Positions 1 through 64,000 of a stretch of 64,000 bases of DNA are shown here, piece after piece. Below the pieces are notes generated by a model that made no database searches, was not told the origin of the DNA, and was given only the letters and a program-made list of their open reading frames with translations. This DNA comes from Hymenobacter psoromatis. Lineage in GTDB: Bacteria; Bacteroidota; Bacteroidia; Cytophagales; Hymenobacteraceae. A program made the translations under genes and the position numbers. Position 1 is the first letter of the stretch, and each line of letters starts with the position of its first letter. Where the stretch lies: NCBI GenBank assembly GCA_001596155.1, contig CP014771.1:3720001-3784000 (forward strand), read 5' to 3'.

Positions 1-770
1 GTGTTTAGCAGCTCATTATCTTTTTTAAAGGGATATTTTTTAAGCGCCACGTCGCCCACGTTCACCCCAATAATAACATCGGGCTTGAACTCCTGGCGCA
101 TCACATCGGTCGGAAAATTATCCAGCACGGCCCCGTCGAAGAGGTAGCGTCCATCGAGGTTGCGGATGGGCCGGAAGGCCAGGGGGTAGGCCAGCGAGTT
201 GCGCACGGCGTCGGCCAGCAAGCCCGATTTCTGCACCACTTTCTCACGCGTAAACACCTCCGTGGCCAGGCAGCGGTACGGCACGAAAAGATTGTCGAAG
301 TTATAATTGGCCTCGGCCGCCGCCGGGGCCAGCAGCCGCGCCAGGGCAAAATTGAGGTTGAGGTCGTTGACGAGGGTAGGCGTGATGGTGGCCTGAAACG
401 TGGAGTCGATGGACAAGCCCAGGTTCAGGGACGCCGGCGAAGGCTCGGCGGTCAGGAAATTGAACGTCTTGTCAGGCAAAACCTTGCCGGTGGCCCAGCG
501 CTGAAAATTGTCGGAGAGCACAATGTGCTCGATTTCACGCGGCGAATAGCCCGCGGCGTACATAGCCCCCACCACGGCACCCATGCTGTTGCCCACGATG
601 TAGTCGATAGGAATGCCATTGGCTTCCAGCTCTTTGAGCACGCCCACGTGGGCCAGGCCCTTGGCACCGCCGCCGCTCAGCACCAATCCCACCCGCTGGG
701 CCGACGCGGTCATAACGGTGCTAAAAACGAACAGACTAACTGATAAGTAGCGGAATAACGATTTGAACAT
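1..770 (-). CDS. Patatin-like phospholipase (3' end outside the window)
   Basis: Reading leftwards from an ATG at 770, 256 codons are visible and the frame runs off the window edge. Residues 1-25 form a signal peptide ending in Ser-Ala-Gln. The patatin/NTE signatures follow in order: the oxyanion loop GGGAKG at 33-38, the nucleophile elbow GNSMG at 60-64 (Ser62), and the catalytic Asp in DGA at 212-214. This Ser-Asp dyad family hydrolyses acyl esters of phospholipids. The signal peptide suggests an exported enzyme; Bacteroidota members often continue into a surface-antigen (BamA-like) beta-barrel, which cannot be checked because the C-terminus is missing. Lipid substrate unknown. Confidence 0.9.
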   Translation of the reverse strand, partial: MFKSLFRYLSVSLFVFSTVMTASAQRVGLVLSGGGAKGLAHVGVLKELEANGIPIDYIVGNSMGAVVGAMYAAGYSPREIEHIVLSDNFQRWATGKVLPDKTFNFLTAEPSPASLNLGLSIDSTFQATITPTLVNDLNLNFALARLLAPAAAEANYNFDNLFVPYRCLATEVFTREKVVQKSGLLADAVRNSLAYPLAFRPIRNLDGRYLFDGAVLDNFPTDVMRQEFKPDVIIGVNVGDVALKKYPFKKDNELLN

Positions 771-1005
771 AAAAAATAAAAGTATTCCGGCAAGTTACGT
801 GCGCCTTACGCTACGGGCGTTTTGGTGGTTGCCGGTGGCAGGCAGGCACCTGCTGCCGGGCAGTGAAACGTCCCAAAGCGGGACGTCATTTTTTGTTTAA
901 TATTCTGAGGATGAACATTAAGCAGAAAATATAAAACCTGCTTATTCTATGCAACATCCGCGCTTTTCGCACGTAGTTTACTCGTTCTACTTTTCTGGCC
1001 CCCTG

Positions 1006-1449
1006 ATGAAAACCCCTGCCCCTGATGCCGCAGCTAGTAGCAACCCGGCTCGCAAACGGACTAAAACCCGACCCGCTGCCCGGCGCCGCACCGTCGAGAA
1101 TACGTATTCCGACCCCGCGCTGCGCGAGCGCCTCAAAACCGAAATCCGCAGTGCCGCGAAGGGCGGCGAGCCCGGCACCTGGAGCGCCCGCAAGTCGCAG
1201 CTGCTCACCCTGGCCTATCAGAAAGCCGGCGGTGGCTATATCCAGCGCCACCCCAATTCCAAGCAAAAAACCCCACGAAAAGAAGCCGGGCCGGATGTGA
1301 AAACCGCAGCTGCCAAACCCGCTCGCCCCGCAGCCGCTCTTACCCACCCCGGCGCTACCGCCCAAAAGGCCATTAGTGGTAAGAAGAATACCAGCTCTCA
1401 GCCGGCCGCGCACGGCCTCGCTAAGACTACGCGCGAGCAGACCACTTAA
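1006..1449 (+). CDS. Small basic protein with a DUF5872-like motif
   Basis: 147 aa from the ATG at 1006; an in-frame ATG at 949 would add 19 residues. The later start is preferred because a sequence resembling a Bacteroidota -7 box (TACTTTTC, near 990) lies between the two. The core, roughly residues 33-78, reads DPALRERLKTEI, then KGG, then WSARKSQLL and GGGY; I recall this as the signature of short DUF5872-type proteins, a match made from memory. The flanks are low-complexity Lys/Arg/Ala/Pro tails, suggesting a disordered protein that may bind nucleic acid. Function unknown. Confidence 0.6.
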   Translation: MKTPAPDAAASSNPARKRTKTRPAARRRTVENTYSDPALRERLKTEIRSAAKGGEPGTWSARKSQLLTLAYQKAGGGYIQRHPNSKQKTPRKEAGPDVKTAAAKPARPAAALTHPGATAQKAISGKKNTSSQPAAHGLAKTTREQTT

Positions 1450-1626
1450 TTTTGACAGCAACCGGCGACAAACGCGGCTGCCCGTGCTTTTTATCTGTCT
1501 CAGCCAGAGGTGGTTGATTGCGGCAGTTGAGCAATCGTTGCGGCTCGCAAGGGGGGTAGGGCTGGGTAGCCACTTTGGGCAGACTATCGTATAGCGGAGC
1601 TCACTAAGCCCCCTTAGCCCGCGCCA

Positions 1627-2130
1627 ATGATTGATTTTCTGACTGACTTGCTTGGCCTGCACGCCACGGCCAGCGACATTACCACCAGCCAGATTTGCTG
1701 GCGCACCGTCGTTGTTTCTCTCGTGGCCATCGTGCTGCTGCGCCTGTCGGGCCGCCGCACGTTTGCCAGCAGCAGCGCCCTCGAAACCATTGTCAAGTTT
1801 ATGCTGGGCGGGCTGCTGAGCCGCGCCATCGCGGCGGCCGGGCCGTTCTTGCCCACCATCGCGGCGGCGGCTACGCTGGTGGCGGTGCACCGCGCCATTG
1901 CTTATGCCACGTATTTCATCCCGCCCCTGGGCCGCTTAATCAAGGGTGAGCCGTCTATTCTGGCCGAAGGCAACCACATTCATTACAATGAGCTGCGCTT
2001 CGCCAGCGTGTCTGAGCAGGCCATGCGCGCTGCCGTGCGTGGCGCGGCCAATATCGATGACCTGGCGGAGGTCAAAACCGTGCGCCTGGAACACGACGGC
2101 ACCGTCAGCGTCGTGAAAAAGGAAAGCTAA
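1627..2130 (+). CDS. DUF421 / YetF-family membrane protein
   Basis: 167 aa. It has two or three hydrophobic segments (about residues 25-43 and 65-95) followed by a soluble C-terminal domain containing GEPSILAEGNHIHYNELRF, typical of the YetF C-terminal domain. Members are inner-membrane proteins without an established biochemical role; the B. subtilis paralogues have been linked to spores and stress. The gene ends 1 nt before the next one, so the two are probably co-transcribed. Confidence 0.75.
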   Translation: MIDFLTDLLGLHATASDITTSQICWRTVVVSLVAIVLLRLSGRRTFASSSALETIVKFMLGGLLSRAIAAAGPFLPTIAAAATLVAVHRAIAYATYFIPPLGRLIKGEPSILAEGNHIHYNELRFASVSEQAMRAAVRGAANIDDLAEVKTVRLEHDGTVSVVKKES

Positions 2131-2131
2131 C

Positions 2132-2563
2132 GTGCCCGATTCCGCGCCTACCCCCCCGCCCGCCGTCGTGTTGTTCGACGGTGTGTGCAACCTCTGCCAC
2201 TGGCTGGTGCAGTTTATCGTCCGCCACGACCGGGCCGGGCGCTTCCGGTTCGCGGCGTTGCAGAGCGCGGCGGGCCAAGCGCTGCTGGCAGCCCACGGCC
2301 TACCCCCCCTCGCCGCCGGCCACGACCCCGATTCGGTGATGCTGGTAAGTGGCGGGCGGGTTTACGCGCACTCGGCGGCGGTGCTGCGCATCACCCGTGA
2401 GCTAGGCTGGCCCTGGCGGCTGGCATTGGTAGGAGGCCTGCTGCCGCCCACCTGGCGCGACGCGCTGTACCGCTACGTGGCGCGGCACCGCTACCGCTGG
2501 TTTGGGCGGCAGGCGAGCTGCATGCTGCCTACGCCCGAGCTGCAGCAGCGCTTTTTGAGCTGA
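2132..2563 (+). CDS. DCC-family thiol-disulfide oxidoreductase-like protein (DUF393)
   Basis: 143 aa starting at a GTG one base after the stop of the DUF421 gene; there is no nearer ATG that keeps the motif. Residues 16-23 read DGVCNLCH, the DxxCxxC signature (Asp16, Cys19, Cys22) that names the DCC family. These small proteins are predicted to have a thioredoxin-like fold; their substrate is not known. The C-terminal part (WFGRQASCMLPTPEL) also fits the family. Translational coupling to the upstream gene is likely from the 1-nt spacing. Confidence 0.75.
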   Translation: MPDSAPTPPPAVVLFDGVCNLCHWLVQFIVRHDRAGRFRFAALQSAAGQALLAAHGLPPLAAGHDPDSVMLVSGGRVYAHSAAVLRITRELGWPWRLALVGGLLPPTWRDALYRYVARHRYRWFGRQASCMLPTPELQQRFLS

Positions 2564-2579
2564 ACCAAGGTTGGTATGC

Positions 2580-4625
2580 CTATTCCCGCTTGCCCTTCAG
2601 CGCCTGCTTGAGGCCGCCCAACTCATCGCGCAGCTTGGCGGCCTGCAAAAAGTCGAGTTCCTTGGCGGCGGCTTCCATCTGTTTCTCGGTGGCTTTGATG
2701 AGTTTTTCGAGCTCGGCGCGGTTCATCATAGCGATGACTGGCTCGGCGGCCATCGCGAGCGTTGCGCCGCCTTCGGCGTAGGCACCGGCCGGGGCTTGCG
2801 CTTCCACGGTGCGGTAGTCGGCCAGGTCGGTCTGGCCCAGAATCTGGGCGTGGCTCTTGCGCACGGTGCGCGGCGTGATGTTATGCTCTTCGTTATAAGC
2901 CTGCTGCGTGGCGCGGCGGCGGTTGGTTTCGTCAATGGCGCGCTGCATGGAGCCCGTCATGCGGTCAGCATAGAGAATGACCTTGCCGTTCTCGTTCCGC
3001 GCCGCCCTACCCATCGTCTGGATAAGGGAGCGCTGGTCGCGCAGGAAGCCTTCCTTATCGGCATCCAGAATGGCTACCAGACTAACTTCCGGCAGGTCAA
3101 GGCCTTCGCGCAGCAGGTTCACGCCGATGAGCACATCGACCTCGCCCAGCCGCAGCCGCCGCAAAATCTCCACCCGGTCCAGCGTCTTCACATCCGAGTG
3201 AATATATTCGACCTTGATACCCAGGCGGTCCATGTATTTGCTCAGCTCCTCGGCCATGCGCTTGGTGAGGGTCGTCACCAGCACGCGGTCGCCGGCCTTC
3301 ACGCGCTCGTCCACCTCATCCAGCAAGTCATCGACCTGGTTGATGCTGGGCCGCAGGTCAATCACGGGGTCGAGCAGGCCGGTGGGGCGAATAATCTGCT
3401 CCACCACCACGCCGTTGGCCTGGGTCAGCTCGTAGTCGGCCGGCGTGGCGCTCACAAACACGGCCTGCCGATACATGCTCTCGAACTCGTTGAACGTCAG
3501 CGGCCTGTTGTCAAAAGCGGAGGGTAGGCGGAAGCCGTACTCGATGAGCGCCGTTTTGCGTGAGCGGTCGCCGCCCCACATGGCCCGGATTTGCGGAATC
3601 GTGGCGTGGCTCTCATCGACCACCAATAAATAGTCATCGGGAAAGTAGTCGAGCAGACAAAACGGCCGCGAGCCCGGCGAGCGCCGGTCGAAGTAGCGCG
3701 AGTAGTTCTCAATGCCCGAGCAGTAGCCCAGCTCGCGTATCATTTCGAGGTCAAACTCGGTGCGCTCCTGAATGCGGCGGGCCTCCACGTCGCGGCCTTC
3801 CTTCTCGAAGTACTTGTGCTGCTGCACCATATCATCCTGAATCTCGTGGATGGCGGTGTTCAGCGTCTCCTTGCCCGTCACAAAAAGGTTGGCGGGGTAG
3901 AGCGTCATATTCTTCTCGTCCGAAAGCTTGCGCCCGCTCACCGGGTCAATCTTCTGGATGGCTTCAATCTCATCGCCAAAGAAGAAAATGCGATACGCGT
4001 AGTCGGCGTAGGCCGGATACACGTCCACCGTGTCGCCCTTCACCCGAAACGAGCCGCGCTTAAACTCCACCTCGGTGCGCGAATACAGAATCTGCACGAA
4101 CTGGTAGAGCAGGTTATTGCGCGAGTAGCGGTGGCCGGGTGCCAGAAAAATGACGTTTTTGCTGAACTCCTCGGGGTTGCCGATGCCGTAGATGCACGAC
4201 ACGGAGGCAATAACCACCACGTCGCGCCGCCCGCTTAGCAGCGTGCTGGTGCAGTGCAGCCGCAGCTTCTCAATCTCCTCGTTGATAGCTAAGTCCTTCT
4301 CAATGAAGACGTCGGAGCTGGCAATGTAGGCCTCGGGCTGGTAGTAGTCGTAGTAGCTGATGTAGTACTCGACGGCATTTTGCGGGAAAAACGCCTTGAA
4401 CTCGCCGTAGAGCTGGGCAGCCAGCGTCTTGTTGTGGCACATCACCAGGGCGGGCTTGCCGGTTTGGGCAATCACGTTGGCCATCGTGAAGGTTTTGCCG
4501 GTGCCGGTGGCCCCGAGCAGCACCTGGGCCGGCTCGCCGCCGTTCACGCCTTTCACCAGCTCGGCAATGGCGCGCGGCTGGTCGCCGGTGGGTTGGAAGT
4601 CAGAAGTAAGCTGGTACGTGGACAT
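2580..4625 (-). CDS. uvrB: UvrABC excinuclease subunit B
   Basis: 681 aa, full length for UvrB. It is the helicase-like damage-verification subunit of nucleotide excision repair: it is loaded by UvrA, probes one strand with a beta-hairpin, and recruits UvrC. Visible are the Walker A GATGTGKT at 38-45, the tyrosine-rich beta-hairpin YYDYYQPEAY near residue 95, the DESH box, the helicase C-terminal motifs (GVNLLREGLDLPEVSLV), and a C-terminal UVR domain with KELDFLQAAKLRDEL that contacts UvrC. The next gene on this strand starts elsewhere, so it is probably transcribed alone. Confidence 0.98.
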   Translation of the reverse strand: MSTYQLTSDFQPTGDQPRAIAELVKGVNGGEPAQVLLGATGTGKTFTMANVIAQTGKPALVMCHNKTLAAQLYGEFKAFFPQNAVEYYISYYDYYQPEAYIASSDVFIEKDLAINEEIEKLRLHCTSTLLSGRRDVVVIASVSCIYGIGNPEEFSKNVIFLAPGHRYSRNNLLYQFVQILYSRTEVEFKRGSFRVKGDTVDVYPAYADYAYRIFFFGDEIEAIQKIDPVSGRKLSDEKNMTLYPANLFVTGKETLNTAIHEIQDDMVQQHKYFEKEGRDVEARRIQERTEFDLEMIRELGYCSGIENYSRYFDRRSPGSRPFCLLDYFPDDYLLVVDESHATIPQIRAMWGGDRSRKTALIEYGFRLPSAFDNRPLTFNEFESMYRQAVFVSATPADYELTQANGVVVEQIIRPTGLLDPVIDLRPSINQVDDLLDEVDERVKAGDRVLVTTLTKRMAEELSKYMDRLGIKVEYIHSDVKTLDRVEILRRLRLGEVDVLIGVNLLREGLDLPEVSLVAILDADKEGFLRDQRSLIQTMGRAARNENGKVILYADRMTGSMQRAIDETNRRRATQQAYNEEHNITPRTVRKSHAQILGQTDLADYRTVEAQAPAGAYAEGGATLAMAAEPVIAMMNRAELEKLIKATEKQMEAAAKELDFLQAAKLRDELGGLKQALKGKRE

Positions 4626-5134: not shown

Positions 5135-5143
5135 AGTGAGCCG

Positions 5144-5556: not shown

Positions 5557-7233
5557 CTACTGTATTTTAAACGGCCGGCCCAGCTCCAGCCCCGCTTCCA
5601 GCCCAAAGCTGTAGGGCCGTTGCTGATGCCAGAAATCCTGGTTCGGGTCCGCGTTGAGGCTCAAAATGCCAAATTCGGCCACCGGCCCCAGGCTAAGGGC
5701 CCACTGATGGCCCACCGGCCGGTACTGAATGCCGCCGCCGCCACGCAGCGAGCTATTGAAGTGCCGGTAGGGCGAGCTGGAAGACATGGGGGTGTAAATG
5801 CGAGTGGCTTCGGGCGTGCCCTCCACGTCGCTGCGCACGTTGAGCAGGGAAGTTAACAGCGCCCCTACCCGGCCGTAGAGCGAGAAGCCTGTTTTGAGCG
5901 GACTAGCGTAGCGCATTTCTGCCGCCGCGCTGGCCGAGCGGTAGCGATACGAGGTGCGCTGCAAGTGAGCCCGCATAGCCTGCGCGTAAGTGAGGTCGGC
6001 CACCTGCTCGCCCACGAACGACACGGAGGTAGCCGAGTTAGCAGTGTTCTGAGCCAGCTCCAGGCCCGTGCGCAGGTGCCAGCGGCTGCCACCCAGGCGG
6101 CGGCTGGCCCACACGCCCAGCCGTTGGCCCAGGCCGGCCCGCAGGTTGTTGCGGTACTCCGCCGCCGCATTATTGGTAATGGTGGCCGAATTCAACCCAA
6201 AAGAGGGGTTGTAGCTGGTGGGGGCTTTCGAAAAATCTATATTAGGCTGAAAAGAGCTGGCCGCATAAGAAACCCCATACTGCCAGTGCCGCGCCAGCTC
6301 CACGGGTGGCATGGTCACCTCCAGGGGGCTTAGGCTAGCCGGCAGTGTCGCCGCGCCAAGCGCATCCAGACTGGCCGCGTGGGCAGACAAGCTATTCATT
6401 GCCAGCCCTTGCGATGCCGGGTCAGCCGTGTTAGCATCGGCAAAAGCAGCAGTCAGGCGCTGCTCATTCGTAGCAGCTGGTGCGGCAGCCGGCAACCCGG
6501 TAGCCAGCGCCAGCGCTCCCGACTCCGCGCCGCTGGCGGGGGGTAGGGCGCCGTGTCGTGCTTCGCTCGCAGTGGCAGCAGTCCGCTTAGCCGAAGCGGC
6601 CGTTGCTGCCATCACCGTGCGAGAAGAGTTGTCTTCCGTCAAACCCACCTGGCTGCGGTGCGCGCCCGCATCGGTGCCCGGCTTCGGCGATTGCCAGATG
6701 GCCATTTCACGCGTCGGCCGTGCGCCTGCCCGCTGCCGGGTGGTTGCCTGGGCCAGGTAGGGGAGGGTAGCCGCCCGGCCCGTAGCTGCGGCAGAAGAAC
6801 CAGTTGATTGGGCCTCCGCCCGAAGAGTAGTAGGTTGGTCGATAGCTGAGGGAGTAAGTGTGGAAGAGTAATTGGCACGGCTGGCAGCCACGGCCGTAGG
6901 CGCGGTAGCCAGCCCCGGCGTGGCAACTGCACGGCGGGCCGCGGCCACGCCCGGCAATTCGGCCGGGGTGGCCGTGGCGAGCGAAGCCGTGGGCGACTGC
7001 TGGCTGTGCCACCAGCCGCCGCCCGCCAGCGATGCCAGCAGCAAGCTGGCCGCGATGGCCCAGCGATGCACCCGCAGGCGCCGCCGATATTGTTCATTCT
7101 GAGCCAGAAGCAGGCTGTTGTCCAGCTGCTCCCACACCTGCGGGCGCGGGGTCACCGCGGCCGCCTCACTCTCCAGCAAGTGGTGGCGAAACAGGTCTTC
7201 CAGACTACCCTTGGGCGGGGTCAATGGGTTCAT
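5557..7233 (-). CDS. Transmembrane anti-sigma-like protein with a beta-barrel-like C-terminus
   Basis: 558 aa in three parts. Residues 1-56 are cytoplasmic, with a conserved-looking LEDLFRHHLLESEA and PQVWEQLDNSLL. Residues 58-75 are one membrane helix. Then comes a long Ala/Thr/Ser-rich linker to about 310, and a C-terminal part (about 312-558) with alternating aromatic/polar strands ending in GLELGRPFKIQ, like the last strand of an outer-membrane barrel. It starts 16 nt after the sigma-factor gene, the usual place for an anti-sigma factor. Such fusions of an anti-sigma-type N-terminus with a PorT-like C-terminus are common in Bacteroidota but little studied. The role is inferred from position. 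Confidence 0.65.
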   Translation of the reverse strand: MNPLTPPKGSLEDLFRHHLLESEAAAVTPRPQVWEQLDNSLLLAQNEQYRRRLRVHRWAIAASLLLASLAGGGWWHSQQSPTASLATATPAELPGVAAARRAVATPGLATAPTAVAASRANYSSTLTPSAIDQPTTLRAEAQSTGSSAAATGRAATLPYLAQATTRQRAGARPTREMAIWQSPKPGTDAGAHRSQVGLTEDNSSRTVMAATAASAKRTAATASEARHGALPPASGAESGALALATGLPAAAPAATNEQRLTAAFADANTADPASQGLAMNSLSAHAASLDALGAATLPASLSPLEVTMPPVELARHWQYGVSYAASSFQPNIDFSKAPTSYNPSFGLNSATITNNAAAEYRNNLRAGLGQRLGVWASRRLGGSRWHLRTGLELAQNTANSATSVSFVGEQVADLTYAQAMRAHLQRTSYRYRSASAAAEMRYASPLKTGFSLYGRVGALLTSLLNVRSDVEGTPEATRIYTPMSSSSPYRHFNSSLRGGGGIQYRPVGHQWALSLGPVAEFGILSLNADPNQDFWHQQRPYSFGLEAGLELGRPFKIQ

Positions 7234-7249: not shown

Positions 7250-7879
7250 TTATTTAAGAGGCGGTTGAAGGCGGGCCAGCTTGGTTTGAAGTACCACGCG
7301 GGCGCGAGAATATTGCGATTTACTGGTGCCTTCCGAAATTTCCAGCATCTCGCCAATCTCTTTATGCGTGTAGCCCTCGATAGCGTATAGGTTAAAAACC
7401 AGTCGGTAGCGGGGGGCCAATTCCTGCACTACGTTCAGCAGCTCGCCGTAGGCGTAGCTACTAAACGTAAATTCTTCACTGGCCAGCGTTTCGGGGTAGT
7501 CGCCGTCGCTCACGGCCACCAGCGGCGCGTTGCGGCGGTGCTGGCGCAGGGCCGCGTTTATCATAATGCGCCGAATCCAGAACTCCAGCGGGCACTCGCG
7601 CCGGAAGCTGCCCAGCGTCCGAAATACCGTCAGGAAGCCTTCCTGCAAGATGTCTTCGGCCTCAAAAGTCGTTTGGGCGTAGCGCAGGCACACGGCCATC
7701 ATGCGGGCCGAGTACCGCTCATAGAGCTGCTTTTGAGGCAATTGCCGGCCCAGCAGGCAGCCATCTATCAGTTCGGCCTCGCTCGGGGGGGTAGGGGGGC
7801 CTGAGCGGCTCACGGTAAGGTTGTTACTGGCAGGAGCAGGTTCCCCGGCGGCCATTGCGGGCCAGGCAGCGGCACTCAT
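7250..7879 (-). CDS. ECF-type RNA polymerase sigma factor
   Basis: 209 aa. Region 2 (about 50-115) contains LYERYSARMMAVCLRYA and EAEDILQEGFLTVF, and region 4 (about 150-205) contains LAPRYRLVFNLYAIEGYTHKEIGEMLEISEGTSKSQYSRAR, with the -35-recognition helix-turn-helix at its end. The first 30 residues are Ala/Pro-rich and not conserved, so the true start may be a later codon; a GGGGGGGTAGGGG run is encoded there as Pro-Pro-Thr-Pro-Pro. It heads the cassette ending at 4733. The signal sensed is unknown. Confidence 0.9.
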   Translation of the reverse strand: MSAAAWPAMAAGEPAPASNNLTVSRSGPPTPPSEAELIDGCLLGRQLPQKQLYERYSARMMAVCLRYAQTTFEAEDILQEGFLTVFRTLGSFRRECPLEFWIRRIMINAALRQHRRNAPLVAVSDGDYPETLASEEFTFSSYAYGELLNVVQELAPRYRLVFNLYAIEGYTHKEIGEMLEISEGTSKSQYSRARVVLQTKLARLQPPLK

Positions 7880-8303
7880 AAACGGGGCCGGCCAGCGCCG
7901 GAATGAAAGACGTTCAACATACGCGCTGCTTACTGCCTACGAAAGATATGTTGCTACTTGGTTGCTCCTCGCACACCCCTAAGAAGCCGGACGTGTGATA
8001 CTCGTTGCAAGTAGGACGAACTTTTTTCGTAGCGATAAACTAAGAAACTGTAAATCAACAAATTGGAAGAATAACCACCATACGGATAAATAATGTGCGT
8101 ACATTTAATACGGGTGTATTCATAAAATAAGCTCCTCCAAAAATCACTTTGCAGGCTGCTTTCAACTCCGCTGCACCACCGCGCTAGCCAGCCCGTGCGC
8201 TGGGGCTGGCTGTTAACCATTTTGCGTAAGTTCTATTAAAAAATAGGGGGGGGTAGGAACGGCCACAGCGCGTCCCTACCCCCCTGTCGCGCGTCAGCGC
8301 CTG
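7880..8303. other. Intergenic region between sigma factor and aroE
   Basis: About 424 bp. The part near 8000-8130 is AT-rich and probably holds the promoter of the leftward sigma-factor cassette, but I could not place a clear TAnnTTTG box. An 88-codon minus-strand frame (7954-8220) has no plausible protein features. The right end contains the aroE terminator. Confidence 0.5.
8245..8285 (-). terminator. Intrinsic terminator of aroE, built from two facing GGGGTAGG words
   Basis: On the minus strand CAGGGGGGTAGGG at the right arm pairs with CCTACCCCCCCCT at the left arm (about 11 bp), and the hairpin is followed by TATTTTTTAA. It lies 19 nt downstream of the aroE stop. Both arms are copies of the over-represented G-rich word discussed in the findings. 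Confidence 0.7.
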
Positions 8304-16443: not shown

Positions 16444-17472
16444 CTAAGTTACAACCGGCGGCCGAGACGTCCGGTTCGTTTCGAGGGTAGTAGCCAGCCA
16501 GGCCACGGTTTCGGCCAGCGGGCGAAAGCCGAGCCCCGTGGTGCGCCGCGCTTTGCTGGCATCGTACGCTAGGGGCTGCCGGCCCGCGCGGGCCGTGTCA
16601 CGGGTGATGAGCGGCCGCGCCCCGGTGAGCAGCGACCGGGCATGCTCCAGCCGCCAGATGACCTCGGCCGCCCAAGGCGGCACGGCCACGCTGGGCGGCC
16701 GCCGGCCAAATGCCTGCGCCAGCATAGCCAGCACCTCCCCCAGCGGCTGCATGCCCGCGTTCAGAATGTAGCGGGCGGGGGGCAGGTCGGGCAGGTCCAG
16801 CGTGAGCCGTAGCAGGTGCGCCACTACATCCCGCACATCTACGAAGTTGATTTGATTGGGCGTGTAGAATCGGTGCTCGTCGTAGGCGTAGCGCAGGAGC
16901 TGCGTGCTGCTGCGGTGCCAGTTGCCGGCCCCGAGTACGATGGAAGGATTAACGATAACGGCTGATAATCCTTCGGCTACCCCTCGCCACACTTCCAGCT
17001 CCGCCAAGTACTTGCTGGTAGCGTAAGCCGAGTGGCTGGCGCCCAGGTCCCAGGTAGCGGCTTCATCGAGGAGGCGGGGGGTAGGGGCCGCCGGCGCATC
17101 GGCCCCGCCGGCCGTGGCCGTTTGTCCCAGGGCTGCCACCGACGATACATAGCCCAGCCGGATGGCGGGGTGGCGCAGGCAGGCATCCACTATGGCCGCG
17201 GTGCCCTCCACGTTCACTTGCAGCAGCGCGTCCTCATCCTGCGGAGCATACGAAACAAGGCCCGCACAGTGCACGACGTGCGTTATCTCCGCCGTGATGA
17301 CGCTGGTGAGCAAATAGGTGTCAGCTAAATCACCTTGCACCCACTCCACTCCGGCAGGGCCATTGCCAGGCAATGAGCCGCGATATAGCGCCCGCACCGC
17401 CAACCCACGCCCGCGCAGCTCCCGTAACACGAAAGAGCCAATAAGTCCAGTGCCGCCCGTCACAAAAATCAT
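16444..17472 (-). CDS. NAD(P)-dependent epimerase/dehydratase family protein
   Basis: 342 aa, extended short-chain dehydrogenase. It has the N-terminal dinucleotide loop VTGGTGLIGSFVLREL at residues 4-19, an Asp in VQGDLAD, and the catalytic YATSKYLAE (YxxxK). Substrates in the family are usually nucleotide sugars or 3-beta-hydroxysteroid/dihydroflavonol-type compounds; the C-terminal half looks more like the latter subgroup (SDR family 48), so a sugar role is not assured despite the neighbouring capsule genes. Confidence 0.85.
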   Translation of the reverse strand: MIFVTGGTGLIGSFVLRELRGRGLAVRALYRGSLPGNGPAGVEWVQGDLADTYLLTSVITAEITHVVHCAGLVSYAPQDEDALLQVNVEGTAAIVDACLRHPAIRLGYVSSVAALGQTATAGGADAPAAPTPRLLDEAATWDLGASHSAYATSKYLAELEVWRGVAEGLSAVIVNPSIVLGAGNWHRSSTQLLRYAYDEHRFYTPNQINFVDVRDVVAHLLRLTLDLPDLPPARYILNAGMQPLGEVLAMLAQAFGRRPPSVAVPPWAAEVIWRLEHARSLLTGARPLITRDTARAGRQPLAYDASKARRTTGLGFRPLAETVAWLATTLETNRTSRPPVVT

Positions 17473-23615: not shown

Positions 23616-24500
23616 ATGGACGAATTCCTGGATTTTCTGCGCTACGAGAAGCGTTTTAGCCCCCACACTGTCACTTCATATCAGACAGATTTGACGCAGC
23701 TTGCTACGTACTTGCGGTCAGAGTACGAGTTGGCTGCGCCGGCGCAGGCCACGCATCCGCTCATCCGGGGGTGGGTAGTGAGCCTGATGAGCCAGGACCT
23801 GGACCCGCGCACGGTGAACCGCAAGGTGGCCTGCCTGCGCTCCTTCTACAAGTTTCTGCTGCGGACCCACCAGATTGAGGCCAACCCGATGCTGCGCATC
23901 AAGGCACCCAAGATGGCCAAAAAGCTGCCCGAATTCGTGCCCGAAGAGTCCTTGAACCGCATGTTGAATTCGTTTGAGTTCGAGGACAGCTTTACCGGAG
24001 CCCGCGACCAACTGGTGCTCGAAATGCTATATGGCACGGGCATCCGTCTTTCCGAGTTGCTGGGTATTACGGATAATGAGTTAGATATCAGCGCGCGCAC
24101 GGTGCGCGTGACGGGCAAGGGCAACAAGCAGCGCATCGTGCCGCTAAACCCTTCGCTGCTGCTGGTGCTGGAAAAATACCGGACTTGGCGCGCCGCGGAG
24201 TTTGGGCCAGCGGCCGCTAATAAGCCCTTCTTCCTAACTGATAAAGGCGAACCGCTCTACGAAAAGCTGGTGTATCGCACCGTGAAGAAATACCTGAGCC
24301 AGGTATCGACCTCTGCGGCGCACCAGCATCCGCACGCGCTGCGCCACGCGTTTGCTACCCACCTGCTGGGCAAGGGTGCCGACCTGAACGCCATCAAGGA
24401 ATTGCTGGGCCACGCCAGCCTGGCAGCCACGCAAGTGTACACGCACTTGTCCGTTGACCGCCTGAAATCCGTATTTGAACAAGCCCACCCTCGGGCCTGA
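23616..24500 (+). CDS. Xer-type tyrosine recombinase
   Basis: 294 aa with the usual XerC/XerD layout: an N-terminal SAM-like core-binding domain (residues 1-90) and a catalytic domain. Catalytic residues are visible: Arg in YGTGIRLSELLG, Lys in VTGKGNKQRIVPL, HALRH (His-x-x-Arg-His), His in LLGHASLAATQ, and the nucleophile Tyr in VYTHLS. In Bacteroidota the gene between rpsU and hpf is usually the chromosomal XerC/D, which resolves chromosome dimers at dif with FtsK. CCCTACCCCC occurs 30 nt before the ATG. Confidence 0.93.
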   Translation: MDEFLDFLRYEKRFSPHTVTSYQTDLTQLATYLRSEYELAAPAQATHPLIRGWVVSLMSQDLDPRTVNRKVACLRSFYKFLLRTHQIEANPMLRIKAPKMAKKLPEFVPEESLNRMLNSFEFEDSFTGARDQLVLEMLYGTGIRLSELLGITDNELDISARTVRVTGKGNKQRIVPLNPSLLLVLEKYRTWRAAEFGPAAANKPFFLTDKGEPLYEKLVYRTVKKYLSQVSTSAAHQHPHALRHAFATHLLGKGADLNAIKELLGHASLAATQVYTHLSVDRLKSVFEQAHPRA

Positions 24501-25045: not shown

Positions 25046-26515
25046 TTAGTCGTCAAGTAGTTGGCTGGCCAGGTGGGCGGCCATGTTCACTCCTTCGACG
25101 AGTAGACGCAGGCTGCGGCGGCCGAGCCAGAGGGTTTGCCAGCCGGGTGGGCCGTCGCCTTTGCGGCCCAGGTGGCCGCCCAGTGCGGCCAGGGCCAGGA
25201 ATACAGCGCGCACGGTGTCCAGCGGGCGGCGGCTCTGGTGGCGCAGTACCCGTAATTCCCTGGTCGTCAGGCCAGCCACCTCGGCAGGGGCGTCCGGCTC
25301 CAGGCGGCTTTTTTCGCGCAAGTCCACCAGGGCCAGCGCCACTACGCTCAGCAGGGCCACGGCCGCGAAGAGCCGGGCGGCGGTTTGCAGCTGGAGCTTT
25401 TCGGCCCCGAGTCCTGTCTTTAAGGCCTTGTGGAAATCTTCTATCAGCCAGCGGCTCGTGTACTGGCGGGCGCAGGTCAGGGCCTGGGCGAAGTCGGTGA
25501 CAGGCTGGTCGCAAAGCCGCAGCCACTCCAGGCCGGGGGCCGCCTCAAGGGCCGTTTCTTCCCAGACCCGCACCAGGCTGGCGGGCACCGGCTCGCCCTT
25601 GCCCGTGGCCCCGCCCGGCCGCTGCGGGGCTCGTAAAGCTACTGCCGGACTGAAACTTACCTGCAAGACTAGCTCGCGCGCCGGCTGGCGGGGCCGCCCG
25701 CGCAGGGCCAGGGAAAAGGTGCCGACGCTGGGCTGGGCGCGGGCCAGCTCAAAGAGGCGGCCGGCGGGCGTTTTGGCCGGCCCCGCCACCAGGGCCCGGT
25801 CCTGGGCGGCCCGCACCACGAAGCCCAGCCCCTGGGTGTGGCACTGCTGCAAGTGCTCGTAAATGTCGGCCCCGCGGTCGGCCACTACTACCCAGCGCGT
25901 GCCGACCGGGGGACTCCCTACCGCCCGCAGACTCTGCGCCCACAGGGCCGACTCGCGGGGCCGGCCCTGGCGGGGGCGGGAACCGCCGTGGGGGGCCGCT
26001 TTCTCGGCTTCGGGCACGGGCTGGCGCACGTGAAACTGCTGGTCGAGTAGGCCCAGCAGCGGCAGGGCGGGCCGTTTGGCGGCCGGGTCGGGGTCGACGG
26101 CGGGCCAGGCGGCGGCCACTAGCGAGTGCAGCAGTACGCCCTGACTGCGGGCCTTGCCCGGCCCCACCGGCCCGAGGCCCGCCCGGCGCTCGGCGGCCTC
26201 GGGCCAGCTCAGCTCGGTCGTATCCTCGACCAGCAGGTACGTGCCGGGTACGTGCAATTGCTGACTAACCAGCTGCCGGTGTGGCGCTTGCAACGCATCA
26301 GGCGTGGTCTGCGAGTGGCTTAGCAACTGATAAGCGGCTTTGCTGGCGTAGGGCTGCCCCCGGCTCAACTGCGGAATGCTAGCCCCCGGCTGCCGCGCCC
26401 AACCGGCTGCCAGCGTACACACGCGCTGGCGGCGGCGCACATCACCCAGCCGTACCTCGCCAAAATGCGTCTGCGCCCACTGCTGTGGGTCGCCAAAATG
26501 CGTCGAAATAGACAT
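25046..26515 (-). CDS. IS4-family transposase
   Basis: 489 aa and intact. It opens like Tn5 transposase (WAQTHFGEVRLGDVRRRQR). The DDE residues can be placed: Asp in VEDTTEL, Asp in VVADRGADIYEH, and Glu in the signature YTSRWLIEDFHKALK, which fits the IS4 pattern Y-x2-R-x3-E-x6-K exactly. It cuts and pastes the element by a hairpin intermediate in the Tn5 group. No frameshift or internal stop is seen, so the element may still be active. Very GC-rich, which produces long spurious frames on the other strand. Confidence 0.95.
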   Translation of the reverse strand: MSISTHFGDPQQWAQTHFGEVRLGDVRRRQRVCTLAAGWARQPGASIPQLSRGQPYASKAAYQLLSHSQTTPDALQAPHRQLVSQQLHVPGTYLLVEDTTELSWPEAAERRAGLGPVGPGKARSQGVLLHSLVAAAWPAVDPDPAAKRPALPLLGLLDQQFHVRQPVPEAEKAAPHGGSRPRQGRPRESALWAQSLRAVGSPPVGTRWVVVADRGADIYEHLQQCHTQGLGFVVRAAQDRALVAGPAKTPAGRLFELARAQPSVGTFSLALRGRPRQPARELVLQVSFSPAVALRAPQRPGGATGKGEPVPASLVRVWEETALEAAPGLEWLRLCDQPVTDFAQALTCARQYTSRWLIEDFHKALKTGLGAEKLQLQTAARLFAAVALLSVVALALVDLREKSRLEPDAPAEVAGLTTRELRVLRHQSRRPLDTVRAVFLALAALGGHLGRKGDGPPGWQTLWLGRRSLRLLVEGVNMAAHLASQLLDD

Positions 26516-26635: not shown

Positions 26636-27898
26636 TTACAGCTTAAAAGCAGCTTTAATCTGGTCCACGTAGTCAAGTTTCTCCCAGGTGAAGGTTTCGA
26701 AGGTCTTCTCCTCGCCGTCTTTCATTTTCACCGTGATGGTGCCGGGCTGGCGGCCCATGTGGCCATAGGCGGCGGTTTGGCCAAAAATGGGGTTGCGCAG
26801 GCCCAGGCGCTCCACGATGGCGTAGGGGCGCAGGTCGAACAGCTCGTTCACCTTATCTGCAATTTCGCCGTCGGTCAGGGGCTGACCAGCCGCGTTCTTG
26901 GCTTTCGTGGTGCCATAGGTAGTCACGTAGAGACCTACTGGCCTGGCCACGCCGATGGCGTAGGCCACCTGCACCAAAACCTGGTCGGCCACGCCGGCCG
27001 CCACGAGGTTTTTGGCGATGTGCCGGGTGGCGTAGGCCGCCGACCGGTCCACTTTGCTGGAGTCTTTGCCCGAGAAAGCGCCGCCGCCGTGCGCGCCCTT
27101 GCCGCCGTAGGTATCCACGATGATTTTGCGGCCCGTCAGGCCTGAATCGCCGTGCGGGCCGCCGATAACGAACTTGCCCGTGGGGTTGATATGGTGCTTT
27201 ATATCGCCCGTGAACAGGGCCTGCATCTCGGGGCTGAGGCTGGCCTTCACGCGCGGAATAAGCAGATTGATGACGTCTTGCTTGATGTGGGACAGCATCA
27301 CTTCCTCCGACGGGTCGAAGTCGTCGTGCTGGGTGCTGATAACGATGGCCTCAATCGCTTCGGGCCGGTGGTCGTCGGAGTAGCGAATCGTGACCTGGCT
27401 CTTGGCATCGGGGCGCAGGTAGGTCATTTCCCTACCCCCCTTGCGGATGGTGGCCAACTCCTGAAGCAGGCTGTGCGACAAATCCAGGGCCAGCGGCATG
27501 TAGTTGGCCGTCTCGTTGGTGGCGTAGCCGAACATCATGCCCTGGTCGCCGGCACCCTGCTCCTCGGGAGCCTGGCGCACTACCCCCTGGTTGATATCGG
27601 GCGACTGCTCGTGCAGCGCCGACAGGATGCCGCAGCTTTCGGCCTCAAACTTATACTCGGCCTTGGTGTAGCCGATGCGGCGGATAACGTCGCGGGCAAT
27701 GTGCTGCACATCAACGTAAGCGGAAGACTTTACTTCACCGGCAATAACGACGAGGCCGGTGGTAACGAGCGTTTCGCAGGCAACTTTGGCGGCGGGGTCC
27801 TGGCGCAAAAAGTCGTCGAGGATGGCGTCAGAAATCTGGTCGGCAACTTTATCGGGATGGCCTTCCGAAACCGATTCGGAAGTGAACAGATAGGGCAT
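26636..27898 (-). CDS. metK: S-adenosylmethionine synthetase
   Basis: 420 aa, the usual bacterial length with a small insertion. It makes SAM from methionine and ATP. Motifs: [12 protein letters not shown] (residues 14-25), [12 protein letters not shown], and [39 protein letters not shown] word lies in the gene at 27,428 and encodes part of Lys-Gly-Gly-Arg. Upstream there is a promoter-proximal hairpin (next entries) that could regulate it. ahcY, the other main methyl-cycle gene, is 2 kb away. Confidence 0.98.
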
Positions 27899-30025: not shown

Positions 30026-31345
30026 ATGGTAGCGACCAAGCCCACAACCTACGTTCCCTATAAAGTAAAAGACCTGAGCCTGGCCGAGTGGGGCCGCAAG
30101 GAAATTCGCTTGGCCGAAGCCGAAATGCCCGGCCTCATGTCCCTGCGCGAAGAGTTTGGCCCCAGCCAGCCGCTTAAAGGCGCCCGCATCGCTGGTTGCC
30201 TGCACATGACCATTCAAACGGCCGTGCTCATTGAGACGCTCATCGCGCTCGGGGCCGACGTCACGTGGTCGTCGTGCAACATATTTTCGACCCAGGACCA
30301 TGCCGCCGCGGCCATCGCCGCCGCCGGCATTCCGGTATATGCCTGGAAGAGCATGAACGAAGAAGAGTTCGACTGGTGCATCGAGCAAACAATGTGGTTT
30401 GGCGAGGAGCGCCAGCCGCTGAACATGATTCTGGATGATGGCGGCGACCTCACCAACATGGTGCTCAACCAGTTCCCCGAGCTGGCGGCCGGCATCAAAG
30501 GCGTGAGCGAGGAAACCACGACCGGCGTGTTGCGCCTCATCGAGCGCGTGAAAGATGGCTCGCTGCCCTTCCCCGCGTTCAACGTGAACGACTCGGTAAC
30601 GAAGTCAAAATTTGACAATAAATACGGCTGCAAAGAGTCGGCCGTGGACGCTATCCGCCGCGCTACCGATGTAATGATGGCCGGCAAAGTGGCCGTAGTA
30701 GCTGGCTACGGCGACGTAGGAAAAGGTACTGCCGCTTCGCTCAGCGGCGCTGGTGCCCGCGTCATCGTAACCGAGATTGACCCCATCTGCGCCCTGCAGG
30801 CTGCGATGGACGGCTTCGAAGTGAAGAAGATGGAGAACGCCATTCCGCGCGCCGACATCGTTATCACGACCACCGGCAACTGTGACATCATCCGCGAGGA
30901 GCATTTCCGCGCCCTCAAGGACAAGGCGATTGTCTGCAACATCGGCCACTTCGACGATGAAATCGACATGGCCTGGCTGAACAAGAACTACGGCCACACC
31001 AAAGACACGGTGAAGCCGCAGGTTGATATCTATAATATTGACGGCAAAGAGGTTATCATCTTGGCCGAAGGTCGTTTGGTGAACCTGGGCTGCGCCACTG
31101 GTCACCCCTCGTTCGTGATGTCGAACTCATTCACCAACCAGACGCTGGCCCAGCTAGAGCTGTGGAAGAACGCCGACCAGTACGAGCACCAGGTGTACAC
31201 CCTACCCAAGCACCTCGACGAGAAAGTAGCCCGCCTGCACCTCACCAAAATCGGTGTCGAGCTGGACGAGCTCACGCCCAAGCAAGCCGACTACATCAAG
31301 GTGCCGGTGGAAGGCCCGTTCAAATCGGACCTGTACCGCTACTAG
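30026..31345 (+). CDS. ahcY: Adenosylhomocysteinase
   Basis: 439 aa, standard length. It hydrolyses S-adenosylhomocysteine to adenosine and homocysteine using bound NAD. Visible are the substrate-side [14 protein letters not shown], the NAD-binding [15 protein letters not shown] (about 228-242), [22 protein letters not shown], and the C-terminal KSDLYRY that reaches the NAD site of the neighbouring subunit. The stop codon is followed directly by GGGGGTAGG and then a strong terminator. Confidence 0.98.
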
Positions 31346-38327: not shown

Positions 38328-38366
38328 AATGTGGGAGTAGAAAAAGTGAGGGGGGTAGGGGCGGGG

Positions 38367-47067: not shown

Positions 47068-50976
<3,909 letters not shown>

Positions 50977-51256: not shown

Positions 51257-55612
<4,356 letters not shown>

Positions 55613-59958: not shown

Positions 59959-60005
59959 TTTCCTTTCAGCTTGTCACACCCTGAGGCAATCGGCCTCTAA
60001 AAACC

Positions 60006-60311: not shown

Positions 60312-60318
60312 ACCTGAG

Positions 60319-60376: not shown

Positions 60377-60383
60377 ATTTCCT

Positions 60384-61211: not shown

Positions 61212-61848
61212 AAGTAAAAGTAGCCGCTACGATTTGGAGTAACAGGCTTTAGCAGGGGTAGGACATTATTTACTTTTCAAGCACGCTAGTTAAAGCTATG
61301 CCCTTTGGGCAAGACTTTAGTTGCTACTCACTTTCGCCAGTATTAGTCATAAAAGAATGATAAGTTTTTGATTGTCAATTAATTATTGTTTTTTACCCAA
61401 CGACCGACGTTAGCGTTTAGCCAGCAAAATTTCATTCTGGCGCAACCCACTTTCAGTGGCTGTCTTTCAGCTGGCTTCAGCCGAAACCGCCGAATTCCAT
61501 TCGATTTAAAATATATAGAATTATAATATATGATTGTTTAATTATAAAATTACCTAAAAATTAATACAATTCAATAAAAAAATTGTTTTCAGCTTTCCAA
61601 GAGTAATCTTTTCCTCCCGATTGCTACTTAAGCCGAAGTTAGAAATTTAGAAAAGCTTATTTTTCAGGACAGGTTAATATTTTTAATTATTTAAATACAT
61701 TTATGTTTTTTATTATCTTTGGTTCCCACTTGTGTTACAGAAGGTAGCGAAGAAAGTGAATTGCTGGGACCGCAAGCTTTGCTTTGCTGATGCCTGTGGA
61801 GAATTACGAACACCTAACAGCTTGAGAGAAAATTATTTTCCCGCTTAT
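61212..61848. other. AT-rich intergenic region upstream of rplC
   Basis: Over 600 bp of AT-rich DNA (especially 61,500-61,720) with no credible gene on either strand. It should hold the glycosyltransferase promoter on the minus strand and a second rplC promoter candidate: TATCTTTG at 61714-61721. It may be decayed former coding sequence. Confidence 0.55.
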
Positions 61849-61881
61849 CTTGGTTTTTCTCAGCAAAAATTCCTACCTTTG
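61849..61881 (+). promoter_or_regulatory. Promoter of the rplC operon
   Basis: CTTG at 61849-61852, 21-nt spacer, TACCTTTG followed by CACTCCC at 61874-61881. The same TACCTTTGCACTCCC occurs at the tRNA-Trp/secE promoter. Confidence 0.7.
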
Positions 61882-61893
61882 CACTCCCTTAGC

Positions 61894-61921
61894 GAAAAGG
61901 CCACTCGGGCCTTTTCTTTTT
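61894..61921 (+). terminator. Terminator-like hairpin in the rplC leader
   Basis: GAAAAGGCC pairs with GGCCTTTTC around ACTCG, followed by TTTTT. It begins about 6 nt after the expected transcription start and ends 22 nt before the rplC ATG, a good position for attenuation. Confidence 0.65.
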
Positions 61922-61943
61922 GTGTCATTTAATATCCACTAGA

Positions 61944-62564
61944 ATGCCTGGCATCATCGGTAAAAAAATCGGTATGACAAGCCTCTTCACTCCGGACGGG
62001 AAAAACATCCCTTGCACGCTCATCGAAGCGGGTCCGTGCGTAGTGACGCAGGTTAAAACTGTCGAAAACGACGGCTATAACGCTGTTCAGCTTGCCTATG
62101 GCGAGAAGAAGGCTAAACGTACCACTAAGGCCCTGGCTGGCCACTTCGCCAAAGCCAGCACTACCCCCAAGAAACGCCTCGTTGAATTCCGTACGGAAGA
62201 CCTCGCAGCTTATACTCTCGGCAGTACGGTTGAAACCTCGCTGTTCGAAGAGGGTGAGTTTGTTGATGTTGTAGGCACCTCAAAAGGTAAAGGTTTCCAG
62301 GGTGTTGTAAAACGCTACAACTTCCAAGGTGTGGGTGGTCAAACCCACGGTCAGCACAACCGTCTGCGTCACCCCGGTTCTATCGGGGCGTGCTCGTGGC
62401 CTTCGCGCGTATTCAAGGGAATGCGCATGGGTGGCCGCATGGGTACCGACCGCGTCAAGATTCAGAACCTGAAGGTGATGCGCATTGTGGCCGATAAGAA
62501 CCTGATTTTGGTAAGCGGCTCAGTGCCCGGTGCCAAGAACGGCTACGTGTTCCTGGAGAAATAA
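61944..62564 (+). CDS. rplC: 50S ribosomal protein L3
   Basis: 206 aa from the ATG at 61944 ([15 protein letters not shown]); an earlier in-frame start lies within the leader hairpin region and is rejected. [29 protein letters not shown] is the conserved loop that reaches the peptidyl-transferase centre. It now heads the operon rplC-rplD-rplW-rplB. Confidence 0.98.
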
Positions 62565-62583
62565 CCTGCTAAGCTTACTAGAG

Positions 62584-63231
62584 ATGGAACTGTCCGTATT
62601 CAATAGCAAAGGCGAAGACACCGGCCGCAAGGTTACGCTGTCCGACGCCGTGTTCGGCCACGAGCTGAACGAGCACGTCATGTACCTCGACGTGAAGCAG
62701 TACCTGGCCAACCAGCGCCAGGGTACGCACAAATCGAAGGAGCGCGCCGAAATCGCCCGCACCACCAAGAAACTGAAGAAGCAGAAAGGCACCGGTGGTG
62801 CCCGTGCTGGTTCGATGAAGTCGGGTGTGTTCGTAGGTGGTGGCCGCATGTTCGGTCCACGTCCGCGCGACTATAGCTTCAAGCTGAACAAGAAAACCAA
62901 GCGCGTTGCGCGTCTGTCGGCCCTTTCGGTGCTGGCCCGCGATGGCAAAGTGGCTTTGGTTGAAAACCTGGCGTTCAGCGCTCCCCGCACGAAAGACTTC
63001 GTGGCCGTTTTGGATGGCCTGAAGCTCAACAACGGTCGCAAGACCTTGTACGTGACCGGCGAAGCTACCGATAAGAACCTGCTTCTCAGCGCCCGCAACG
63101 TGCAGAAAGTGAAGATTTCAACCGCCGTAGGTCTCAACACCCACGACCTGTTGAACACCGACACGCTGCTCATCAGCGAAGACGGCCTGCGTTCGCTGGA
63201 GCAATTGTACACCTCTAACTCCGCCGAATAA
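62584..63231 (+). CDS. rplD: 50S ribosomal protein L4
   Basis: 215 aa from the ATG at 62584. The long extended loop lining the exit tunnel is visible as KLKKQKGTGGARAGSMKSG and RMFGPRPRDYSFKLNKK. L4 represses the S10 operon in E. coli. It overlaps rplW at TAATGA. Confidence 0.97.
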   Translation: MELSVFNSKGEDTGRKVTLSDAVFGHELNEHVMYLDVKQYLANQRQGTHKSKERAEIARTTKKLKKQKGTGGARAGSMKSGVFVGGGRMFGPRPRDYSFKLNKKTKRVARLSALSVLARDGKVALVENLAFSAPRTKDFVAVLDGLKLNNGRKTLYVTGEATDKNLLLSARNVQKVKISTAVGLNTHDLLNTDTLLISEDGLRSLEQLYTSNSAE

Positions 63232-63518
63232 TGAGCACGCTGAAACGCCCCATTATCACCGAGAAGGCTACCAGCCTCACCGAAACCGGCCGCTACGTAT
63301 TCGAAGTGGAACGCACGGCCAACAAGGTGCAGATTAAAAAAGACATCGAGCAACTTTATGGCGTCACCGTGACCGGCATCAATACGATGCGCACGATTGG
63401 CAAAATCAAGTCGAAGGCTACCAAAGGTGGCCAGGTTTCGGGTCGTCGCGCCCACGGCAAAAAAGCCGTCGTGACCCTGAAAGACGGTGATATCATCGAT
63501 TTCTATGGCAATATCTAA
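63231..63518 (+). CDS. rplW: 50S ribosomal protein L23
   Basis: 95 aa: LKRPIITEKATSLTE, then VERTANKVQIKKDIEQLYGVTVTGINTM. It lies at the tunnel exit and docks SRP and trigger factor. Start codon overlaps the rplD stop by one base. Confidence 0.97.
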   Translation: MSTLKRPIITEKATSLTETGRYVFEVERTANKVQIKKDIEQLYGVTVTGINTMRTIGKIKSKATKGGQVSGRRAHGKKAVVTLKDGDIIDFYGNI

Positions 63519-63550
63519 TTGCCTTCGCCGCAAAAGCCCAATAGCTAGTA

Positions 63551-64000
63551 ATGGCACTTAAAAAACTCAGACCAACCACGCCAGGCCAACGCTTCCGCGT
63601 GGCCCCGGCCTTCGACGAGATTACCTCGGCGACGCCGGAGAAGTCGTTGCTGACCTCGCTCAAAAAGAGTGGCGGCCGCAACCACTCGGGTAAAATGTCG
63701 AACCGCTACATCGGCGGTGGACACAAGACCCAGTACCGTATCGTGGACTTCAAGCGTGACAAAGCCGGCGTGCCGGCCACGGTGAAGACCATCGAGTACG
63801 ACCCCAACCGCACCGCTCGTATTGCTTTGCTGCATTACGCCGACGGCGAGAAGCGCTACATCATCGCCCCTGCTGGTCTGAATGTGGATACCGTTATCGT
63901 ATCGGGTCCCGGTGTAGCTCCCGAAGTTGGCAATGCGTTGCCGCTCCGCGAGATGCCCCTTGGTACCATCGTCCACAATATCGAGTTGCAGCCCGGTCAG
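63551..64000 (+). CDS. rplB: 50S ribosomal protein L2 (3' end outside the window)
   Basis: 150 codons from the ATG at 63551 ([15 protein letters not shown]), against about 274 expected. It contains [19 protein letters not shown] and the RNA-binding [26 protein letters not shown]2 is needed for subunit joining and peptidyl transfer. The frame is open to the window edge. Confidence 0.97.

Follow-up and report, generated by a model that had tools for sequence, protein, structure and literature searches.

A KOPS-like polar word and an iterated GGGTAGG word in Hymenobacter genomes

In a 64,000-nucleotide stretch of the Hymenobacter psoromatis chromosome (GenBank accession number CP014771.1, here contig C3; coordinates 3,720,001 to 3,784,000; the window hereafter), the word GGGTAGG and its complement CCTACCC recur so often that the question arises whether they serve chromosome segregation. 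The original prediction held that GGGTAGG(G) is over-represented and fits the consensus of the FtsK-orienting polar sequences (KOPS). Two layers are probably superimposed here: the KOPS of Hymenobacter, which would be the longer word GGGTAGGGG, at its best as GGGTAGGGGA, and a separate multiplication of GGGTAGG, referred to below as the flood, in two lineages.

The assembly of the studied genome (G000; 5,451,254 bases in three contigs) includes the chromosome C3 of 5,244,843 bases and smaller replicons of about 200 kb (C1; 199,990 bases) and 6.4 kb. The chromosome was sampled in 115 stretches covering 2.27 of 5.24 Mb; the initial 95 were used for the strand profile and for gene-context counts, which rest on gene calls from an in-house script. 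The genus comparison included 37 Hymenobacter genomes, G000 among them. GGGTAGG read backwards served as the control word in each genome.

Abundance and polarity of GGGTAGG

The over-representation of GGGTAGG is real, and was confirmed both in the window and in the genome. The window contains 53 copies, close to the fifty or so counted by eye in the original prediction against eight to twelve expected; 100 dinucleotide shuffles gave a mean of 6.5 and a maximum of 12. The longer forms stand out more: GGGGGGTAGG and GGGGGTAGGG occur 19 times each, as compared with 0.1 expected under a first-order model. When the model knows all 6-mers, the excess of GGGTAGG in the window falls to 53 versus 36, as is to be expected if parts of the word are themselves enriched. 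In the whole genome, GGGTAGG is found 6,060 times (3,078 forward and 2,982 reverse) and the reversed control 456 times (233 and 223).

In the chromosome sample, the word has a density of about 1.15 per kb and a near random, Poisson-like spacing. Its commonest context is a longer G run, for example GGGGGGTAGGG, and the G runs ahead of TAG differ in length among sites. A longer repeat or mobile element as the carrier was rejected, as the flanks of the 53 window copies share nothing beyond the G run; the gap-free alignment of coding sites to relatives also speaks against a mobile carrier, several intergenic sites being unalignable. Neighbouring copies no more than 60 bp apart form 139 pairs, 89 in the same orientation, 35 in the (+-) and 15 in the (-+) order; the C-rich-then-G-rich order is thus scarce as compared with G-rich-then-C-rich (15 versus 35; 115 stretches). 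The 200-kb replicon C1 has about half the chromosomal density, with 49 copies in the 80 kb sampled.

The cumulative strand excess of GGGTAGG shows one main rise and one main fall, with turns about half a genome apart. The change-point maps to 830,627 (2-unit support interval 823,150-844,576, from 436 sites between 610 and 1,014 kb), 93 bp from a dif-like 28-mer at 830,534. The search for dif used a 22-mer pattern with up to three mismatches and gave a single site in G000 and one or more sites in 57 of 59 genomes; the five sites used in this work have 0, 1, 1, 2 and 2 mismatches. At the opposite turn, a local cumulative minimum at 3,329,879 accompanies the sole parS-like site at 3,339,816, and the 16S genes are co-directional with the inferred ori in three cases out of three. 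As the change-point, dif, the cumulative minimum and parS agree, the G-rich word lies on the leading strand, directed from ori toward dif. The original prediction had named an unchanged polarity at ori and dif as evidence against KOPS; in G000, polarity changes at both. Over the 115 stretches, the leading to lagging ratio is 1,555:1,027 (60% leading).

This polarity depends on the letters that follow the core. Where the base after GGGTAGG is not G, the ratio is 554:463 (54.5%), short of the strong polarity of a KOPS, and the bias shows no gradient toward dif. The ratio rises to 708:478 (60%) for GGGTAGGG not followed by G, to 292:86 (77%) for GGGTAGGGG and to 36:5 (88%) for GGGTAGGGGA, the most polar form seen. 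The bias of GGGTAGGGG is also cleaner near dif, being 76:11 (0.87) at less than 400 kb and 81:38 (0.68) beyond 1.8 Mb (Fisher p 0.0015).

Among all words scored for polarity, GTAGGG, GGTAGGG and GGGTAGGG reach z values of 10.5, 11.4 and 11.0, respectively, and similar values elsewhere come only from pieces of a CRISPR (clustered regularly interspaced short palindromic repeats) repeat. With GGTAG-type words and most of that repeat masked, the highest z values for words of 5, 6, 7 and 8 letters are 8.5 (AAAAA, 55%), 6.5, 5.4 and 4.9, respectively, so that all remaining 7- and 8-letter words lie below half the z of GGTAGGG and GGGTAGGG. The sister words GGGTTGG, GGGTCGG and GGGCAGG have strand fractions near 0.5. 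The CRISPR-like array itself, found in an 18-kb stretch (C3:786,001-804,000) where the repeat core CACCTGGTCCGATTG occurs 133 times, lies about 27-45 kb from dif.

The longer word in relatives and its predicted reader

KOPS-like polarity was assessed in four relatives, G020, G012, G010 and G026, with strands assigned from dif only; in G000, the switch points were taken from the word itself together with dif and parS located by sequence. In G020, a single contig lacking the flood, GGGTAGGGG occurs 72 times versus 18 for its reversal, and 66 of the 72 copies are concordant with dif and its antipode; the strand switch falls between 3,200,134 and 3,254,649 and dif lies at 3,218,809. Concordance is 63 of 77 in G012, where the switch between 971,539 and 989,022 encloses dif at 974,177. 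In G010, 29 of 32 copies on contig C1 are concordant, the 14 copies on other contigs (46 in total) being excluded, and the switch is found 72-189 kb past dif. These three genomes thus carry the polar 9-mer (72, 77 and 46 copies) and no flood.

The sharpest pattern was observed in the flooded genome G026, which has 122 copies of GGGTAGGGGA versus 6 of the reversed word. Among the 100 copies listed, the 42 up to 1,702,328 are all on the plus strand and the 58 from 1,724,062 onwards are all on the minus strand, with the best dif-like site (two mismatches) at 1,721,947; the 22 unlisted copies are 17 plus and 5 minus by subtraction. Dif and the exact antipode accommodate 99 of the 100 listed copies; when the switch positions are left free, the fit covers all 100. 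For all four relatives, no arrangement among 2,000 strand shuffles equalled the observed concordance. Within 500 kb of dif, 15/16, 16/20, 3/4 and 19/19 copies are concordant in G020, G012, G010 and G026, respectively, no clear rise over the totals.

The FtsK protein of G000 includes a gamma domain that matches the FtsK gamma structures 2j5o and 2ve8/2ve9 (E ~6e-12). On the aligned helix (GYNRSGRLMD versus GYNRAARMIE, against 2j5o and 2ve8), the positions taken to correspond to E. coli N1296, R1300 and E1303 have N and R kept and E replaced by D. In E. coli, these three residues are the KOPS contacts according to an excerpt of PMC2533119. A search of the open-access literature for a paper joining Hymenobacter, FtsK and KOPS found none.

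The original prediction therefore holds for part of the words: GGGTAGGGG(A), longer than the word first proposed, behaves like KOPS in five genomes, and KOPS fits this subset of words and not the over-representation, which it leaves unexplained. As judged from sequence, FtsK would be the reader of GGGTAGGGG and GGGTAGGGGA: placed on the leading strand from ori to dif, these words would load the FtsK gamma domain, and the loaded FtsK would pump toward dif, where XerCD resolves dimers. The flood would have brought the core GGGTAGG into the thousands in two lineages, through point substitutions almost blind to strand. It would supply near-copies of the KOPS in both orientations, and selection would remove those on the wrong strand according to how well FtsK reads them, acting in the G000 lineage mainly on flood words near enough to GGGTAGGGG to be read. 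Selection by readability would give the graded leading share of 54.5%, 60%, 77% and 88%, and the cleaner bias near dif may arise because FtsK acts there.

Several observations weigh against this two-layer reading. The density of GGGTAGGGG is flat along the distance to dif (16.6, 16.9 and 16.3 per 100 kb), though the flood could hide a rise. Among the other words of the GGGNAGGG type, GGGGAGGG is clearly polar (68:21), in contrast to GGGCAGGG (149:125) and GGGAAGGG (22:31); hence the full E. coli consensus is not used here. In G012, GGGTAGGGG is hardly more frequent than its reversal (77 versus 53). The switch points in G000 were partly placed using the word itself. The reversed dif pattern also finds matches in 21 of 59 genomes, which makes matches with three mismatches unsafe, and G026 has two additional, weaker dif-like sites (three mismatches versus two). 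The dnaA gene (C3:875,008-876,504) has an unusual position, some 45 kb away from dif and roughly 2.5 Mb from the inferred ori; an ori at dnaA (875 kb) is itself ruled out by dif, parS and the three 16S genes. The top genomes of the low group, G033 and G021, have 1,414 and 1,333 copies of GGGTAGG versus 488 and 482 of the reversed word (2.8-2.9-fold), so that the flood is not strictly all-or-none. A crude motif scan of the gene calls for a cognate methyltransferase, which covered less than half the genome and was liable to miss many types, gave five candidates, none of them in a methyltransferase family. Finally, the letters of the KOPS core recur in both independent floods, which is odd if the layers are unrelated. 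Either one driver entered on two occasions or it is related to FtsK, and this is the main loose end.

Spread of the flood and competing explanations

Five of the 37 genomes (G000, G014, G026, G028 and G034) are flooded, with 4,625-6,650 copies of GGGTAGG, and the other 32 have 414-1,414. Outside the genus, G037 (same order, other family) shows a smaller excess, with 285 copies versus 34 of the reversed word. In an RpoC tree covering 29 of the 37 genomes, several forks of which are weak, two changes are needed to account for the five flooded ones, one in a clade of eight and one in G026. None of the clade's four low members has a copy in the rpoBC region, and the coding words of flooded members differ from the sequences of relatives by substitutions at aligned positions. 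Three of the G000 rpoBC words are also present in G026, one of them in G035 as well. Coding sites of the window compared with loci L009 and L010 of relatives show similar words made by substitution.

Other words are iterated in other lineages. Copies of the palindrome CCCTAGGG number 916 in G033 and 902 in G021, as compared with no more than 36 in any of the other 35 genomes. In samples of 20-27 kb, CCTAGG is at 2.7-4.4 times expectation in G033, G021 and Hymenobacter sp. BT559, and GGGCCC at 2.1-2.5 times in G012 and one named metagenome-assembled genome; both are below 1 in the other 12 of 17 sample sets, except GGGCCC at 1.11 in G010. Since a palindrome such as CCCTAGGG cannot be directional, iteration in itself does not amount to a segregation function. 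The 115 stretches of G000 further show that certain palindromes are strongly avoided, with AGATC (8 versus 1,710 expected), CCATGG (12 versus 1,501) and CCCGGG (44 versus 3,104) among them, and a 20-kb sample of G010 (L215) has 13 copies of GGGGGCAAA and 12 of GGGGGCTTT versus 0.4 expected for each, perhaps terminator stems.

That the flood word is a Chi-like recombination signal, read by an enzyme of the AddAB or RecBCD type, is unlikely, though this is the best placed of the alternatives. The word is G-rich, asymmetric, scattered and somewhat leading-biased, as such a signal might be; on the other hand, the bias of the flood proper is weak, and the palindrome CCCTAGGG of the sisters G033 and G021 cannot be directional. 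Chi is normally common to related species, and the flood is confined to five of 37 genomes of the genus. The open-access literature yielded nothing on Chi with AddAB and recombination hotspots in Bacteroidetes.

A DNA-uptake sequence, spread through biased transformation and with lineage-specific dialects, is slightly less likely. The density of about 1.15 per kb, the Poisson-like spacing, the origin by substitution at aligned coding sites and the different words of sister lineages would all suit it. Known uptake sequences typically form close inverted pairs, and these are not enriched for GGGTAGG (35 and 15 versus 89 in the same orientation).

That the whole flood is KOPS, with each GGGTAGG orienting FtsK, is improbable. 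The flood word does contain the KOPS core, 60% of all copies are leading and the strand switches at dif, and both floods arose on the same core. Against this, copies followed by A, C or T stand at 554:463 with no gradient to dif, and three relatives manage with 72, 77 and 46 copies of the 9-mer and no flood.

Plain mutational bias or base composition, whether it comes from GC skew, from G on the leading strand, from slippage in G runs or from a C-to-T change in GGGCAGG, is a little less probable still. In its favour, the G runs before TAG vary in length, and at several rpoBC sites CTGCCC of relatives is replaced by CTACCC, i.e. GGGCAG by GGGTAG. The presumed source word GGGCAGG is also lower in a small sample of G034 and G014 (15 versus 16 expected), as compared with 1.97-fold in G020 and G005. 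However, GC skew in the individual stretches departs from zero by no more than about 0.06, and GGGTTGG, GGGTCGG and GGGCAGG are at 0.9-1.4 times expectation in G000, with no strand preference. GGGCAGG is only modestly lower in G000 (1.39 times expectation versus 1.70 in low genomes), and one rpoBC site common to four species requires several synonymous changes in nine bases. A single-step change of GGGCAGG as the sole source of the flood was rejected, the fall in G000 being too small (larger in the small G034 and G014 sample). Composition and GC skew were likewise rejected as the source, and the coding flood words that could be aligned were made by substitutions.

The polarity is independent of genes: the leading fraction is 218/365 for words on the coding strand, 735/1,237 for those on the opposite strand and 346/582 between genes, all 0.59-0.60 (57 words spanning gene edges excluded). 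Gene orientation as its source was rejected, since gene strands are balanced on both replichores and all contexts show the same polarity. An effect of transcription or translation, raised originally to account for the gene-linked bias, could be read from the prevalence of the C-rich form on the coding strand (1,237 versus 365) and between tandem genes (211 to 124, for which the stop codon is no explanation), yet it is very improbable, as no G-rich copy falls in the frame GGG-TAG, both orientations are far above 20 synonymous-codon shuffles (365 versus a mean of 21; 1,238 versus a mean of 218), and sense, antisense and intergenic words have the same leading fraction. The in-gene bias is largely due to the genetic code, because the frame GGG-TAG is a stop.

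In the two-layer reading, the driver of the flood might be a process like that of the highly iterated palindromes (HIP), with a sequence-specific DNA-modifying, repair or recombination factor turning over between lineages, which is a guess. A tentative and rather less than even possibility is that a non-palindromic iterated word with a drive of its own invaded two Hymenobacter lineages on the core of a segregation code, the FtsK polarity surviving in the longer form and sisters carrying rival words (CCCTAGGG and GGGCCC). If so, the flood is a natural saturation experiment, and the surviving strand bias would read out FtsK recognition base by base in living cells; if FtsK reads the words, its affinity for GGGTAGGGGA, GGGTAGGG and GGGGGGTAGGC would follow the polarity series. 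Iterated genome words, a long-standing cyanobacterial puzzle, may occur in another phylum, need not always be palindromes and may be replaced by others from one sister species to the next. Close relatives with and without the flood are directly comparable to find the driver, and the polar word provides a testable segregation code for a Bacteroidota genus from sequence alone, 99 of the 100 listed sites being concordant in a single genome.

Sites in the window and known systems

The window lies on the replichore whose plus strand is inferred to be leading (ori at about 3.335 Mb), and 32 of its 53 copies of GGGTAGG (coordinates 1 to 64000) are on the plus and 21 on the minus strand. The orientation biases noticed at the outset were reproduced: between genes, the G-rich form is on the plus strand in 16 cases and on the minus strand in 4 (about 12 to 4 originally), and within genes the coding strand carries the C-rich form in 25 cases and the G-rich in 8 (about 23 to 8).

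GGGTAGGGG is found in leading orientation at 7789-7797, in the 5' part of an extracytoplasmic function (ECF) sigma factor open reading frame (7250-7879, minus strand), at 17079-17087 within a gene called on the minus strand, and at 38353-38361, intergenic by the in-house calls. The lagging, non-permissive orientation is represented at 5862-5870 and, within rpoC (51257-55612, plus strand), at 52575-52583, both on the minus strand. An intergenic inverted pair of flood words at 8251-8281 consists of GGGTAGG at 8251 (plus) and 8275 (minus).

Three coding sites show how flood words differ from relatives. The word in metK (27431-27437, minus strand) has no counterpart and no gap in two aligned relatives, and the protein is altered, Gly-Gly-Arg here versus Glu-Gly-Lys in L009. 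In the adenosylhomocysteinase gene, whose product scores 94% to that of Hymenobacter sp. BT559, the site at 31201-31207 (minus strand) reads ACCCTACCC versus ACGCTGCCC in two relatives, a synonymous difference. In rpoB (50574-50580, plus strand; alignment column 983), the Gly-Arg-Ala codons are GGT AGG GCT in all four flooded members of the clade and GGC CGT GCC or GCT in its four low members (GGC CGT GCC in G020 and G005).

The Xer recombinase that had been predicted in the window matches a Xer-type open reading frame at 23616-24500, with XerC as the best NCBIfam match (320.5 bits, slightly below the cut-off of 335). An IS4-family transposase is encoded at 25046-26512.

Among known systems, KOPS have the consensus GGGNAGGG in E. 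coli and V. cholerae and are denser near dif, according to extracts of PMC5357621 (and, for the consensus, of PMC13342612). GGGTAGGGG resembles them in containing GGGNAGGG, in its place on the leading strand, in a polarity switch at or near dif in five genomes and in the FtsK gamma domain encoded in G000. It differs in that the effective word is longer, GGGTAGGGGA being the most polar, in that A in the fourth place is not polar and density does not rise near dif in G000, and in the dilution of the code by thousands of near-copies in flooded genomes. The architecture-imparting sequences (AIMS), as defined in an excerpt of PMC5993296, are likewise strand-biased words whose bias rises toward the terminus; in G000, word abundance is without such a rise.

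The flood itself shares with Chi and uptake sequences the character of an over-represented short word (in the portion of PMC4390886 consulted), and differs from Chi in not being common across the genus and from uptake sequences in having no excess of inverted pairs. The closest known parallel appears to be the HIP-type iterated words, by analogy. As with cyanobacterial HIP1, a short word is iterated far above expectation and absent in close relatives, some of which have another word; in cyanobacteria, an alternate word accompanies a matching methyltransferase, as stated in the same portion of PMC4390886. GGGTAGG differs from HIP words in not being a palindrome, whereas the words of the other Hymenobacter lineages, CCCTAGGG, CCTAGG and GGGCCC, are.

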